Shown here piece by piece: positions 5,797 to 10,506 of a DNA stretch of 64,000 bases. Source of the stretch: Streptomyces pluripotens (lineage in GTDB: Bacteria > Actinomycetota > Actinomycetes > Streptomycetales > Streptomycetaceae). Numbering within the stretch: the stretch's first letter is position 1; the number at the start of each line of letters is the position of its first letter. The DNA lies in assembly GCF_000802245.2 (NCBI RefSeq), contig NZ_CP021080.1, forward strand, positions 4,092,001 through 4,156,000. Direction: 5' to 3'. Under the pieces are notes generated by a model, which did not search any database, had not been told where the DNA came from, and saw only the letters and a list, made by a program, of their open reading frames with translations. A program made the translations under genes and the position numbers.

Positions 5797-6918
5797 ATGA
5801 CCCTTACCCTTCGGCCGATCAGCCGTGCGGAACACCTGGCCTTCGTGGCCTCCCGCCCTTCCGCCAGCCATATGCAGGTGCCGTCCTGGGGAGATGTGAA
5901 ACCCGATTGGCGGGCGGAGAGCCTCGGCTGGTTCGAAGCGGACGGGCGGCTCGCCGGGGTGGGCCTGGTGCTGATGCGGCCCCTGCCCAGGGTGAAGCGC
6001 TATCTGGCCTATCTGCCCGAGGGGCCGGTCATCGACTGGGGTACGCCCGACCTGGAGCGCTGGCTGGAACCGATGCTGGCCCACCTCAAGAGCCGGGGCG
6101 CCTTCTCGGTGAAGATGGGGCCGCCCGTGGTGGCACGCAGATGGAGCCCCGAGGCGGTCAAGGCCGCGATCGCCAACCCCGAAACGCACCGGCTGCGGGA
6201 CGTGCCGGCGACGTCCTACGAGCCGGAGGCCTTCGACCTCGCCGACCGGCTGCGCCGCATGGGCTGGCAGCAGACCGAGCCGGGCGGAGAGGACGGCTTC
6301 GCCGCCGGCCAGCCCAGGTATGTGTGCCAGATCCCTTTCGCAGGGCGGTCGTTGGACGACATCCACCGCGGGCTCAACCAGCAGTGGCGACGCAACATCA
6401 AGAAGGCCGAGAAGGCGGGCGTGAAGGTGGTCCGCGGGGGATACGAAGACCTGTCGGTCTTCTACGGGCTGTACACCGAGACCGCCGAACGGGACCAGTT
6501 CATCCCGCGCCCGCTGCCGTACTTCCAGCGCATGTGGACCGCGCTGAACACCGAACACCCCGACCGCATGCGGCTGTACCTCGCCCACCACGACGGGGAC
6601 GTCCTGGCCGCGGCCACCATGCTGATCGTCGGCGGTCACCTCTGGTACTCCTACGGTGCCTCCACGAGCCGCAAGCGCGAGGTGCAGCCCAACAACGCGA
6701 TGCAGTGGCGGATGATGGCCGATGCCCACGAACTCGGAGCCCACGTCTACGACTTCCGGGGCATCACGGACACCCTGGAGGAGTCCGATCACCTGCTCGG
6801 TCTGCTCCGCTTCAAGGTGGGCGCGGGCGGGGAGGCCGTCGAGTACGTGGGGGAGTGGGACTTCCCGCTGAACCGGCTGCTGCACAAGGCACTGGACGTC
6901 TACATGGCCCGCCGCTGA
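5797..6918 (+). CDS. FemAB/FemX-family aminoacyltransferase (peptidoglycan bridge type)
   Basis: A 373-residue protein starting at ATG 5797 with AAGGAG about 8 bases upstream. It has the paired acetyltransferase-like domains of the FemABX family: SHMQVPSWGD near the N-terminus, QQWRRNIKKAEKAGVKV (about 192-208), TAERDQFIPRPLPYF, and the C-terminal YGASTSRKREVQPNNAMQW and DFRGITD motifs. Family members transfer an amino acid from aminoacyl-tRNA to a lipid-II peptide stem or similar acceptor at the inner face of the membrane. In Streptomyces, FemX adds the bridge glycine to the LL-diaminopimelate stem. Several paralogues usually exist, so this may be FemX or a side-branch enzyme. It has no obvious operon partner; an AT-richer 169-base gap separates it from the small peptide gene. 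Confidence 0.83.
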   Translation: MTLTLRPISRAEHLAFVASRPSASHMQVPSWGDVKPDWRAESLGWFEADGRLAGVGLVLMRPLPRVKRYLAYLPEGPVIDWGTPDLERWLEPMLAHLKSRGAFSVKMGPPVVARRWSPEAVKAAIANPETHRLRDVPATSYEPEAFDLADRLRRMGWQQTEPGGEDGFAAGQPRYVCQIPFAGRSLDDIHRGLNQQWRRNIKKAEKAGVKVVRGGYEDLSVFYGLYTETAERDQFIPRPLPYFQRMWTALNTEHPDRMRLYLAHHDGDVLAAATMLIVGGHLWYSYGASTSRKREVQPNNAMQWRMMADAHELGAHVYDFRGITDTLEESDHLLGLLRFKVGAGGEAVEYVGEWDFPLNRLLHKALDVYMARR

Positions 6919-7087
6919 GGGCGCATTCTCAGCTTCTCAAACCAACACCTAGCCTTTCCAAGGGGATTCACAGCGCTCCTTTGCCATTTTTGCCGTTCGG
7001 GAACTCGGAATGCGTGTAGATTCTTCGGTGTCGGGTTCCGGACGCGGAATTAGACGCCACGAGAAAAGTGCGACATTAGGAGTCGGA
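6919..7087 (+). promoter_or_regulatory. Promoter/leader region of the small peptide gene
   Basis: This stretch is clearly richer in A/T than its neighbours. It contains TTGCC elements (6981-6986 and 6990-6995), a GGAAC box (7000-7004) followed 16 bases later by TTC, and a TAGATT hexamer (7017-7022). None of the spacings makes a convincing vegetative promoter; the GGAAC-N16 arrangement is reminiscent of ECF sigma promoters. AGGAG (7078-7082) is the ribosome binding site for the ATG at 7088. I infer transcription starts in this region. Confidence 0.45.
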
Positions 7088-7213
7088 ATGAGCTTCAAGA
7101 AGCTTGCCCCGCTGCCCCCCAAGCCCCGGGCGAAGCACCTCCCGCCGCCGCCGAAGCCGAGGCCGAAGAAGCACGCACACAAGCCGCTGCACGGTCGGCA
7201 CCACTGCCACTAG
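7088..7213 (+). CDS. 41-residue Pro/Lys/His-rich cationic peptide
   Basis: A short gene with AGGAG five bases before its ATG. Its codons almost all end in G or C, as in genuine Streptomyces genes. The product begins MSFKKLAPLPPKPR, repeats the element as PPPPKPRPKK, and ends in a histidine-rich tail HGRHHCH with the only cysteine next to last. It has no acidic residues and is strongly basic. There is no signal peptide, double-glycine leader or known precursor motif. It sits 90 bases upstream of a fused ABC exporter, separated by a perfect hairpin. Possible roles are a proline-rich antimicrobial-like peptide, a metal-binding peptide (the His/Cys tail) or a peptide precursor. I do not recognise a named family. 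Confidence 0.65.
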   Translation: MSFKKLAPLPPKPRAKHLPPPPKPRPKKHAHKPLHGRHHCH

Positions 7214-7229
7214 TGATCCGGCGCTGAAC

Positions 7230-7265
7230 GGAAAGGGGTCGATGGCGCACCGTCGACCCCTTTCC
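7230..7265 (+). terminator. Perfect 13-bp hairpin between peptide gene and ABC exporter
   Basis: GGAAAGGGGTCGA (7230-7242) and TCGACCCCTTTCC (7253-7265) are exact reverse complements around a 10-base loop, starting 17 bases after the peptide stop codon. It could terminate most transcripts and leave a lower level of exporter mRNA, or stabilise the peptide mRNA. Confidence 0.7.
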
Positions 7266-7303
7266 CCTGTCGTCCAAGAAGGTGATGCAGAAGGGAATTC
7301 GTG

Positions 7304-9418
7304 ATGGGTGAAGAGGGAGAGGAATACGGGTACGACACCCCCAGCATTCCTGCTCGCACCGCATTCCGCCGTTTCTGGCCGCTCACCGGCGGGCTCAGAA
7401 AATGGCTTCTTCTGGCCTGGTCGTGCACGGTGCTCGCCGCGCTCGCCGAGACGGAGGCGGTCCTGCTGTTCGGTGACCTCACCGACCATGCCTTGCAGGG
7501 CTCGCCCACCGCGTTCTGGAGCCCGGCCGCGAAGTGGCTGGGTATCGCCGTGGCCGGTGCGCTCGTCGCCTACGTGGGCAACTCCCTTGCCGCCTGGGCG
7601 ACCGAACGATTCGTGATGAGGCTGCGCGCGCACGTGTTCGACCACGTCCAGCAGATGCCCCCGCACTTCTTTCAGCGCCACCGCCAGGGCGATCTGCTCT
7701 CCCGACTGACCAGCGACGTCGAGGCGATCGAGACGATGGTGGTGTCCGGGCTGCTCGGTGCCGCCTCGGCGGCCTTTTCCGCCCTCTTCTACGCGGTCGC
7801 CGCGTTCTGGATCCGCTGGGACCTGGCCGCCGCCACCTTCGTCCTCGCCCCCCTGTTCTGGCTGGCCGCCCGCCGCTTCTCCAGCTCCGTCAAGGACGTC
7901 TCCCGCGAGGGGCGGGTCGCTGACGGAGCGATCACCTCCGTGGTGGAGGAGTCGCTCGGCAACATCGTTCTCACCCAGGCCTACGACCGCCGGGGCGCGG
8001 AGCGACGCCGGCTGCAGGAGGAAGCGAACGCTTGGTTGCGCGCATCCGTTCGCTCCGCCCGTCTGAACGAGGCCTACGAGCAGCTCGTCCAGGTCATCGA
8101 GACGGTCTGTGTGCTCGCCGTGATCGGCATCGGCGCCTGGGAGATCTCCACCGGCCGGATGACGCTCGGCCAGCTCCTCGCCTTCGCCGCCTTCCTCGGC
8201 TACCTCTACCCGCCCGTGCGTGGTCTCGCCCAGCTGGGTCTCACGGTCACCGCGGCCACCGCCGGCGCAGAGCGGCTCATCGAGATCCTGGACGTCAGGC
8301 CCTCGGTCACCGACCCCCGCCGGGCCACGGAGACCGGACGCCCGGACGGCACGGTGCAGGTGCGGGACGTCTCCTTCCGCTACCCGGGTGCCGCCGGGGC
8401 TGCTCTCGAAGGGCTGTCCTTCACCGCCAGGCCCGGCGAACTGGTGATCATCACCGGCCCGAGCGGCGCGGGCAAGTCCACGGTCTCCAAGCTGCTGCTC
8501 CGCTTCTACGACCCGGATGCGGGTGACATCCTCCTGGACGGTGTACCGCTGAGGGACTTCCCGCTGGCCCGGCTGCGCGAGTACGTCACCCTGCTGCCAC
8601 AGGAGACCCTGGTGCTGCACGACACGATCCGCGCCAACATCGCCTGCGGTCGGCCCGGGGCAAGCGACCAGGCCGTCGAGGAAGCCGCGAAGGCCGCCGA
8701 CGCGCACGACTTCATCCTCCGGCTCCCCCACGGCTACGACACTGCGATCGCCCCCGGCTCGGCCCGTCTGTCCGGCGGTCAACTCCAGCGGCTCGCCATC
8801 GCCCGCGCCATTCTGAGGGACGCCCCCGTCCTGGTCCTGGACGAGCCCACGACCGGCCTGGACGCGATGGCTGCCCGCCGGGTAGTCAGGCCACTGCGGC
8901 GGCTGATGGCCGGCCGCGCGACGATCATGATCACTCATGACCTCAACCTCGCCCCCGACGCCGACCGCATCATCGTCGTCGACCGGGGCCGCATCGTGGA
9001 GACCGGTCGTCACGAGGAGCTCCTCGCCCGGGGCGGGGCGTATGCGCGGTTGCACCGCTCACAGAACAATGCGGTGATGGACACGGGCGAGTTGCGCATG
9101 CCGCTGTGGGAGGAGGTGCGGGCGCGCGAGCACACGCCGGGAAGCCGACACCCAGACGGTCAGCCCGCCCAGCCTGCCCAACCCACCTGGTCCGCTCCGG
9201 GACCCCGGCCCGTCTGCCGGTCCGAGACCGCTTCCCCGCCTGAGGCCGCCCCTTGGCCCGACGCCGCCTCCTGGCCCGAGGCTGCCACTTGGCCCCGGCC
9301 CCGTCCCGCTTTCCAGCCCCGTCCCGAGCTCGCATCCGAGGCCCACCACCGCGTCCCGACGACCCTGCCCGACGGCCGGCCGCTGTTCCGCGACGAAGAT
9401 CCCCGGGGTGGCGGCTGA
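7304..9418 (+). CDS. ABC exporter, fused membrane and ATPase domains
   Basis: A 704-residue half-transporter that would work as a homodimer. ATG 7304 lies 7 bases after AAGGG; a GTG three bases upstream is possible. Residues about 30-330 form six membrane helices of the ABC exporter type-1 fold. The ATPase domain has Walker A (GPSGAGKST, about 385), signature LSGGQLQRLAIARA (about 489), Walker B VLVLDEPTT (about 508) and the switch histidine ITHD. After the ATPase comes an unusual 110-residue Ala/Pro/Trp-rich tail with degenerate repeats such as WPDAASWPEAATWP, likely disordered. The family exports lipids, drugs or peptides. Placement just after the peptide gene suggests, but does not prove, that the peptide is the substrate. 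Confidence 0.88.
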   Translation: MGEEGEEYGYDTPSIPARTAFRRFWPLTGGLRKWLLLAWSCTVLAALAETEAVLLFGDLTDHALQGSPTAFWSPAAKWLGIAVAGALVAYVGNSLAAWATERFVMRLRAHVFDHVQQMPPHFFQRHRQGDLLSRLTSDVEAIETMVVSGLLGAASAAFSALFYAVAAFWIRWDLAAATFVLAPLFWLAARRFSSSVKDVSREGRVADGAITSVVEESLGNIVLTQAYDRRGAERRRLQEEANAWLRASVRSARLNEAYEQLVQVIETVCVLAVIGIGAWEISTGRMTLGQLLAFAAFLGYLYPPVRGLAQLGLTVTAATAGAERLIEILDVRPSVTDPRRATETGRPDGTVQVRDVSFRYPGAAGAALEGLSFTARPGELVIITGPSGAGKSTVSKLLLRFYDPDAGDILLDGVPLRDFPLARLREYVTLLPQETLVLHDTIRANIACGRPGASDQAVEEAAKAADAHDFILRLPHGYDTAIAPGSARLSGGQLQRLAIARAILRDAPVLVLDEPTTGLDAMAARRVVRPLRRLMAGRATIMITHDLNLAPDADRIIVVDRGRIVETGRHEELLARGGAYARLHRSQNNAVMDTGELRMPLWEEVRAREHTPGSRHPDGQPAQPAQPTWSAPGPRPVCRSETASPPEAAPWPDAASWPEAATWPRPRPAFQPRPELASEAHHRVPTTLPDGRPLFRDEDPRGGG

Positions 9419-9473
9419 GCGAGATGCGTCTCACCATCCAGGACAGTGCCGTAAAGCAGTGACACTCCTGTTG

Positions 9474-9493
9474 AAGTCTATTACTGTGGACTT
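9474..9493. promoter_or_regulatory. Inverted repeat upstream of the DMT exporter gene
   Basis: AAGTC (9474-9478) and GACTT (9489-9493) flank a 10-base spacer in an AT-rich 86-base gap. TTGAAG (9471-9476) could be a -35 element with GCAGTA (9495-9500) as a weak -10. If so, transcription starts near 9508 and the GTG at 9556 becomes the better start of the downstream gene. Confidence 0.35.
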
Positions 9494-9504
9494 GGCAGTA
9501 CATC

Positions 9505-10506
9505 ATGATGAACAAGATCCTTGCCGAGTCAGCCCCAGGACCTCCAGGACCGCCCGTGAGCACCGCCAGCAGCACGTCCGACGCCAGCGCCACCACCCCT
9601 AAGTCCGTAGCCCCGAGACCGCCGGGTGCCCCCAGTCGCCTCGGCTCGCTGGGGCCCGTTGGACTGGTGCTGGCCGGCGGTATTTCCGTGCAGTTCGGTG
9701 GCGCCCTCGCGGTGACCCTGATGCCGCGGGCCGGTGCGCTCGGAGTCGTGACGCTGCGTCTGCTCGCGGCGGCCGTCGTGCTCGTCCTCGTCTGCCGTCC
9801 GCGGCTACGCGGCCACTCGCGCGCCGACTGGAGCACGGTGATCGTGTTCGGCGTCGCCATGGGGGCCATGAACGGCCTCTTCTACGAGGCGGTGGCCCGA
9901 ATCCCCCTGGGGCCCGCCGTCACCCTTGAAGTGCTCGGTCCGCTGACCCTGTCCGTCCTGGCCTCCCGTCGTGCGGTCAACGCGCTCTGGGCGGGTCTGG
10001 CTCTCGCGGGTGTCTTCCTGCTGGGCGGGGGAGGCTTCAGCGGCCTTGACCCCATAGGCGTCGCCTTTGCCCTGGGTGCCGGCTCCATGTGGGCGGCATA
10101 CATCATCTTCAGTGCGCGCACCGGGCGTCGCTTCCCGCAGGCGGACGGCTTGGCGCTGGCCATGGCCGTGGCGGCACTGTTGTTCCTCCCGCTGGGCATC
10201 GCCGAGGCTGGTGCCCGCCTGCTGAATCCCACCACCGTCGCCCTTGGGGCGGCGGTGGCCCTGCTCTCCTCGGTGCTGCCCTACACCCTCGAACTCCTCG
10301 CCCTGCGCCGCCTGCCCGCCTCCACCTTCGCCGTCCTCATGAGCTTGGAACCGGCCATCGCGGCGACGGCCGGCTTCCTGGTCCTCGGTCAGTCCCTGTC
10401 CGCCGCGGAAGCCGCCGCGATCGGGCTCGTCATCGCGGCGAGTATCGGCGCCGTGCGGACTCAGGTGGGGCGGGGGAAGCCGCGGCCCCTTCCGGACGAG
10501 CGGTAG
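9505..10506 (+). CDS. EamA/DMT-superfamily exporter (RhtA-like)
   Basis: Up to 333 residues with ten predicted membrane helices in two EamA repeats, the fold of amino-acid and metabolite exporters such as RhtA (threonine/homoserine). Recognisable segments are the first-helix region GPVGLVLAGGISVQFGGALA, VTLEVLGPLTL in the first repeat, and SSVLPYTLELLALRRLP with VLMSLEPAIAATAGF in the second. The start is uncertain: ATG 9505 has no clear ribosome binding site, and GTG 9556 (316 residues) removes a low-complexity leader. Substrate cannot be read from the sequence. It is monocistronic. Confidence 0.85.
   Translation: MMNKILAESAPGPPGPPVSTASSTSDASATTPKSVAPRPPGAPSRLGSLGPVGLVLAGGISVQFGGALAVTLMPRAGALGVVTLRLLAAAVVLVLVCRPRLRGHSRADWSTVIVFGVAMGAMNGLFYEAVARIPLGPAVTLEVLGPLTLSVLASRRAVNALWAGLALAGVFLLGGGGFSGLDPIGVAFALGAGSMWAAYIIFSARTGRRFPQADGLALAMAVAALLFLPLGIAEAGARLLNPTTVALGAAVALLSSVLPYTLELLALRRLPASTFAVLMSLEPAIAATAGFLVLGQSLSAAEAAAIGLVIAASIGAVRTQVGRGKPRPLPDER

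Follow-up and report, generated by a model that had tools for sequence, protein, structure and literature searches.

Within a stretch of 64,000 nt of Streptomyces pluripotens DNA (RefSeq assembly GCF_000802245.2, contig NZ_CP021080.1, positions 4,092,001 to 4,156,000; hereafter the window), a gene for a 41-residue cationic peptide is followed by a strong hairpin and a gene for an MsbA-type ATP-binding cassette (ABC) exporter. We found that this pair belongs to a Streptomyces-centred and apparently undescribed family, in which one to five tiny peptides, mostly rich in Lys, Arg or His, precede the same kind of exporter. The linkage between peptide and exporter is real and wide. We predict, with a probability of roughly 0.55, that the peptide is the substrate of the exporter. 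No description of such a pair was among the top-ranked papers in our literature searches, which is weak evidence of novelty given that subscription papers fell largely outside their scope.

An earlier reading of the window, made from its letters alone (the sequence-only reading), had described the peptide as an orphan beside a dedicated-looking exporter, and had proposed a search for conservation of the two genes and their order. We searched 295 genomes of the same genus in all six frames. Matches at E≤10 were present in 293 of these genomes and look mostly like low-complexity chance; only those with an MSFKK-type N-terminus were counted, and matches were kept to about E 0.19, which makes the resulting count a lower bound. 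Thirteen genomes, the window's own included, matched at E<1e-5, and six more matched with 73–82% identity over the first 33–34 residues. In all of these at least 19 genomes the peptide gene directly precedes the exporter gene, as seen by tblastn at loci L009–L021, L027 and L030 and in fetched regions for the other four. The homologues in these genomes and in the protein database rule out an orphan gene. Below, peptides of the window's kind are called type A.

With the exporter as bait, GTDB genomes yielded 78 loci, comprising 74 relatives (63–89% identity) and four remote ABC proteins. In total, 137 loci were reduced to 121 distinct ones at 99% identity, with exporters 43–91% identical to that of the window. 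A recognisable small peptide gene lies just upstream of the exporter in 116 of the 121, a count that is not blind, since the detection pattern was written after the peptides were known. The five loci without a pattern match include two at contig ends (L054 and L110), one in which the match starts at exporter residue 339 (L107), one with a frame-disrupted peptide gene (L080) and one whose peptide is missed by the pattern and visible by eye (L167). By exporter identity, the peptide is present at 58/62 loci at ≥74%, 49/49 at 60–74% and 9/10 at 40–60%; the pattern detected no such gene upstream of four outgroup ABC exporters of 28–33% identity. A profile of a second peptide type, type B, matched 26 of 290 genomes at E≤1e-4, and at the 30 loci fetched from that profile (27 distinct places; one more match gave no locus) the peptide adjoins an exporter, within the limits of the sequence retrieved, or what is left of one (L124 and L133). 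One type-B peptide, checked for carriage on plasmids, gave no match. Using a 600-residue exporter query and counting the window's genome, we found the exporter at E≤1e-150 in 8 of 41 relatives, at E≤1e-140 in 16 of 99 genomes from the order and at E≤1e-125 in 5 of 118 from the class, two of the five lying outside the order; the three samples overlap.

Two unrelated genes that are neighbours by chance might also be kept together passively, and type A does sit at one conserved chromosomal place: the window's flavin adenine dinucleotide (FAD)-oxidase neighbour recurs at 48 of 54 type-A loci, its EamA neighbour at 44 and its FemAB neighbour at 19, counts that are lowered by cut contigs. However, the pair is also found elsewhere on the chromosome map of relatives, beside different genes, and in further families of the class. 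None of the three neighbours was found at L084–L087, L089–L092, L095–L100 or L108, which carry type-B and related peptides, and some genomes carry a second pair in addition to a type-A one (L057 and L085 in Streptomyces sp. STR69, L053 and L091 in S. fuscichromogenes). Together with the frequency of pairing across the distinct loci, this makes a chance neighbourhood negligibly probable, and the dedicated-looking exporter of the sequence-only reading is strongly borne out.

The window peptide, MSFKKLAPLPPKPRAKHLPPPPKPRPKKHAHKPLHGRHHCH, has a net charge of +11 and no acidic residues, and the G+C fraction at third codon positions (GC3) of its gene is 0.93. In 53 distinct type-A genes, variation is greater at codon position 3 than at position 2, and nonsynonymous and synonymous polymorphism (pN/pS) is 0.095/0.251 in the first 28 alignment columns and 0.235/0.281 in the remainder. 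We conclude that the type-A peptide gene is a coding gene under constraint, beyond what chance would give. The type-A consensus is MSFKKLAPLPPKPK-KQLPPPP-PKPK-KHA-KPLPKP-PGQD; net charge ranges from +8 to +12 with 23–39% Pro, and the charge is held despite sequence drift. The absence of acidic residues and the tail with His and Cys, both noted in the sequence-only reading, are true of the window peptide but close to peculiar to this strain, with no acidic residues in 3 of the 53 and Cys in the window sequence only. Among the protein-database matches the tail HGRHHCH occurs in the window's own sequence (three contigs) and in entry P0003, and no other gene among the 53 of type A encodes it. Judged from these matches, the tail is private to its lineage, and for this reason we reject metal binding by the tail, an alternative raised earlier, as a conserved type-A function. 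Neither the window peptide nor 10 diverse family peptides had a Pfam or NCBIfam match over the curated cut-off, with two sub-threshold Pfam matches for L180. Among the matching database entries listed, those with a name are labelled 'hypothetical' or 'uncharacterized protein', and once 'Histone H1'. Three type-A peptides (L075, L080 and P0006) have a disrupted frame, reflecting decay or sequencing error.

Across the family, the peptides combine a common N-terminal tag, M-S-F-x-K-[ILV]-x-P, with hypervariable, low-complexity and mostly basic tails. After removal of eight spurious pattern matches, and with the frame-disrupted L075 string retained, 138 distinct peptides of 31–68 residues were available. 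Ser is found at position 2 in 117, Phe, Leu, Ile or Val at position 3 in 136, Lys at position 5 in 124, Ile, Leu or Val at position 6 in 130 and Pro at position 8 in 126, frequencies that are not independent evidence because the pattern favours such N-termini. Net charge is at least +5 in 134 of the 138, with a median of +11; only L075 and three peptides rich in His and Asp fall short of this. Type B and C peptides read MSFHKIVPVKPARK...RRPIGG and MSFHKIVPVKKHRKPAPAPKKPAPKKPAPKRPVGHK. Next to exporters of 43–68% identity are Arg/His peptides (L096, L098, L167 and L174), Arg/Gly/Tyr-rich or Arg-rich peptides (L180 and L182–L184), His-rich peptides with Gly and Asp (L166, L168 and L188), a poly-Arg peptide (L187) and Lys/His-containing peptides (L185 and L189). 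L173, in this identity range too but from another family of the class, has a Lys/Pro peptide closely resembling type A.

The exporter matches PF00664 and PF00005 above cut-off, and so has the transmembrane domain (TMD) and nucleotide-binding domain (NBD) of an ABC half-transporter. Across 22 sequences including that of the window, most residues of the Walker A stretch GPSGAGKST and all of the signature LSGGQ and of the Walker B motif LVLDEP are invariant. The best NCBIfam match is MsbA (TIGR02203; 433.2 bits over residues 22–589, under the cut-off of 602), and its neighbours by sequence among PDB entries are MsbA, the exporter of yeast a-factor and proteins of the plant ABCB and P-glycoprotein types. 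The best named matches are from Streptomyces. The start codon is either GTG at 7301 or ATG at 7304, the latter being closer to the relatives, giving 705 or 704 residues. The 'odd' Pro/Trp-rich C-terminus noted earlier is present, but it is a variable linker: in type-A exporters this region (about 9359–9418 in the window) is hypervariable, often rich in Tyr, Gly, Pro and Gln, and usually ends in a conserved DGRPLFR (38 of 52). The 7.35-Mb, single-contig host genome has 14 PF00664 matches in 12 open reading frames (ORFs), and a high-GC3 (0.93) cationic small ORF stands upstream of this exporter only; 3 of the other 11 PF00664 ORFs are preceded by basic ORFs of GC3 0.80–0.83 that look like chance. 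We also considered a defence system, and rejected it: PADLOC matches of the exporter are confined to the ATPase part, and the peptides had none.

The peptide genes, but not the exporter genes, are tandemly repeated at 18 loci. The 121 distinct loci contain one recognised peptide copy at 98 loci, two at 11, three at 4, four at 1 and five at 2. The array at L084 holds one type-A-like and two type-B-like peptides, and thereby ties the peptide types together. Nearly all array copies are preceded by a stretch resembling a ribosome binding site, although the second copy of L086 has only a weak one. In the window, the perfect 13-bp hairpin reported by the sequence-only reading is present as the basal 13 pairs of a longer stem with 15 Watson–Crick pairs and one G-U pair. 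We compared equal 80-nt stretches past the peptide stop codon with mononucleotide shuffles at the 121 distinct loci. Past the last or only copy, a stem of ≥10 bp is found in 110 of 116 cases (median z-score −4.1; 110 with z≤−2), the exceptions being L069, L133, L165, L180, L182 and L188, whereas past inner copies it is found in 2 of 30, both of them first copies (at L084 and L089), with a median z of 0.07 and z≤−2 in 5 cases. Most array members would thus have no terminator of their own. Separately, the internal gaps of the arrays at L127, L136, L138, L141 and L142 contain a nearly invariant noncoding sequence, TTGCAGCAGATCGGTAGARGAACTGTTGCAG, which can form an imperfect 12-bp hairpin.

These arrays bear on the main rival explanation, in which the ORF is a regulatory leader, and its peptide has no role: translation, slowed by runs of Pro, Lys or Arg, by a shortage of transfer RNA or by an antibiotic, would set termination at the hairpin before the exporter gene. 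The layout fits, with a promoter, a short ORF with Pro and basic runs, a terminator-like hairpin and a transporter gene in that order, and Streptomyces offers a precedent in the ABCF gene lmrC, described in PMC8546547 as being under attenuation that depends on an upstream ORF (uORF). Many type-A loci have in common a possible, weak pairing with codons near −74 to −64, and in 3 of 55 type-A loci (L066, L074 and L077; z −1.8 to −3.0) duplexes between upstream RNA and the 5′ arm of the hairpin are better than in shuffled sequence. Over the 55 loci as a whole, however, duplexes between the arm and upstream RNA are no better than mononucleotide-shuffled ones (mean z +0.38), which gives an anti-terminator no overall support, and they have half the strength of the hairpin (−13.6 versus −27.6 kcal/mol). 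Furthermore, the N-terminal tag and the C-terminal RRPIGG/RRPVGHK are amino-acid constraints rather than run constraints. The distribution of stems, with up to five tandem ORFs ahead of them, suits structural genes followed by partial termination, and is difficult to reconcile with a single leader ORF for each attenuator. We consider the leader explanation rather improbable.

We favour instead a two-gene export module, since the same kind of exporter stands directly behind the peptides family-wide and the pump therefore probably carries them. A regulated promoter would yield the peptide in excess, and the hairpin past the peptide gene would pass only part of the transcripts into the exporter gene. 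The exporter would recognise the constant tag, in type A with assistance from an acidic cytoplasmic N-tail of its own, and would pump out a probably disordered peptide, either unprocessed or lightly trimmed. Outside the cell, we speculate, the charged tail could bind anionic polymers such as teichoic acids, extracellular DNA or rivals' surfaces, and His-rich members might bind metals; the earlier suggestion of metal binding may thus hold for distant cousins that are His-rich throughout (L166, L168 and L188). More broadly, we tentatively propose a hitherto undescribed actinobacterial export system in which the eight-residue tag marks hypervariable disordered peptides (Lys/Pro, poly-Arg, Arg-Gly-Tyr or His-Gly) for a dedicated pump, and arrays diversify this cargo into an arsenal of extracellular polyelectrolytes or metal binders; this broader proposal falls short of even odds.

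Several observations weigh against export. The window peptide lacks a Gly-Gly leader, and none was visible by eye in our two peptide alignments (A1 and A2), type B having GG at its C-terminus instead; the exporter has no C39 peptidase domain among its Pfam matches at E≤0.001, and no modification or immunity genes were recognised. A small number of distant members have no net positive charge (−8, −1 and 0). The exporter's N-tail, taken as the 25 residues before the first membrane region, is clearly acidic in type A (median −7, range −12 to +1; 52 exporters) and weakly so elsewhere (−8 to +1 in 12 type-B and related exporters, L084–L108), so recognition by charge is not general, and we rejected the acidic tail as a general docking site. 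Peptide class does cluster on an exporter tree, as expected of a linked pair: it changes 10 times, compared with a mean of 40.6 after shuffling (0 of 200 shuffles as low). This is a quick tree of 83 rows with several long branches, in which type A was randomly thinned to 20 and L173 and most type-A rows are absent; vertical inheritance of a linked pair suffices by itself to produce such matching trees. Lastly, at two places (L133/L196 and L124) the peptides are intact and the exporter is decayed, which reflects either recent decay or a peptide that is useful on its own.

The last of these observations also fits an intracellular peptide, one that partners the exporter (as a chaperone, an inhibitor or a scaffold on the acidic tail) or that binds nucleic acid or ribosomes and is simply co-expressed. 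In type A, an acidic N-tail does face a cationic peptide, and Lys/Pro/Ala and Arg/Gly repeats resemble nucleic-acid-binding tails, in keeping with the one Histone H1 name. However, type B has no clear acidic tail, and hypervariable tails, including His/Asp-rich ones with charges of −8 to 0, and gene amplification would be unusual for a stoichiometric partner. We regard an intracellular role as unlikely.

Proline-rich antimicrobial peptides are mostly animal, and a PRP motif is a criterion for those that bind the ribosome. The sequence-only reading had likened the window peptide to this class, and a ribosome-binding peptide that leaves the cell through a pump of its own would agree with the Pro content and charge of type A and with a dedicated exporter. 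The likeness is one of composition only: the peptides are bacterial, Lys rather than Arg dominates in the relatives (KPKPK), and elsewhere in the family the Pro-rich class is lost, with Pro/Lys replaced by Arg/Gly/Tyr or His/Gly while charge and low complexity are kept. As no immunity gene was recognised either, we consider this explanation very unlikely.

The type-A promoter region is conserved (GTGTAG-TTCTTCG-TGTCGGG plus a small 5′ hairpin in 16 aligned sequences), and no clear −35 box could be named from this alignment. Upstream of it, 55 type-A loci have on average 2.84 copies of TC[TAC]CAG per 215 nt, compared with 0.15 in mononucleotide shuffles, and 52 of the 55 have at least two. Spacings cluster at 10/11, 19–21, 30/31 and 40/41 nt, and the repeats lie 45–260 nt upstream of the peptide gene; in 13 other loci (12 of type B or related, and L075) the frequency is 0.38 versus 0.19 in shuffles. 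Repeats phased at about 10 nt are typical of OmpR/PhoB-type response regulators. The TCTCAG/TCACAG repeats of the window are thus a candidate site for an OmpR-family regulator, which lends support to the 'specific programme' suggested for the gene by the sequence-only reading. PhoP is described in PMC4832192 as binding 7-bp direct repeats with 4-bp spacers. The two-repeat motif has one match elsewhere in the window's genome, with 2 mismatches, and Rfam gave no match at E≤1 in positions 6800–9600. The peptide start codon lies 5 nt from the ribosome binding site (Table 1). Elsewhere in this genome, a second FemAB-family gene (locus L002, G000:C1:3559888-3562995) shares 67% identity with the FemAB gene that precedes the peptide gene, and no exporter match was found in its 3.1-kb locus.

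Table 1. Features of the peptide/exporter locus and its flanks, in window positions (UTR, untranslated region)
Feature	Position	Strand	Basis or remark
FemAB-family gene	5797-6918		5′ flank of the pair
Phased repeats TCTCAG (6927-6932) and TCACAG (6968-6973), 41 nt apart	6927-6973	+	Candidate response-regulator site; motif enrichment
−10-like TAGATT (7017-7022) and conserved GTGTCGGG (7028-7035) near presumed transcript start	7017-7035	+	Conservation across 16 aligned type-A upstream regions
Possible 5-bp hairpin TTCCG/CGGAA in 5′ UTR	7036-7049	+	Sequence kept in most of the 16 regions
Ribosome binding site AGGAG	7078-7082	+	Sequence; GGAG in most of the 16 relatives
Small cationic peptide gene, 41 aa, type A	7088-7213	+	Sequence, homology search, codon-variation comparison
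16-bp hairpin, probable (partial) terminator or 3′-end stabiliser	7230-7265	+	Folding; stems at relatives' loci
MsbA-type ABC half-exporter (TMD + NBD), acidic N-tail, variable C-terminal linker	7304-9418	+	Domain and model matches, alignments
EamA-family gene	9505-10506		3′ flank of the pair

If the peptides are exported, many Streptomyces secrete tiny polycations that annotation labels 'hypothetical' or overlooks, and their short N-terminal tag would amount to a portable ABC-export signal. Without export, the family provides a large set of natural leader-ORF variants before one transporter.

The locus resembles several known systems in part. Peptides of the Rv1535 family and those encoded by mycobacterial Mbox uORF2 (PMC12810186) likewise have a conserved N-terminus with an early, near-invariant Pro, and one type-B peptide (L092:4602-4727) weakly matches NF040652, the Rv1535 family model (16.8 bits, E 0.011, under the cut-off of 62). 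The window peptide has no match to that model at E≤0.001, the window region has no Rfam match, the neighbours are different, and the same source describes the uORF2 peptide as specific to mycobacteria. The uORF attenuators of Streptomyces ABCF genes share a short ORF and a terminator-like hairpin before an ABC gene (PMC8546547), but the window exporter is not an ABCF protein, the ORFs of its family are amplified in tandem, and conserved alternative pairing was not found at the 55 loci. With the exporters of double-glycine bacteriocins and NHLP peptides, the locus shares a small peptide gene beside an ABC exporter, and the exporter matches NHLM_micro_ABC1 (284 bits) and bacteriocin_ABC (266 bits); these scores are far under the cut-offs of 853 and 524, and the C39 domain, Gly-Gly leader and modification genes of such systems were not recognised. 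The closest likeness by model score is to MsbA flippases and multidrug half-exporters such as SAV1866, which have the same TMD-NBD build, and from which the window exporter is set apart by its sub-cut-off score, its extra N- and C-tails and its near-constant small-peptide partner.

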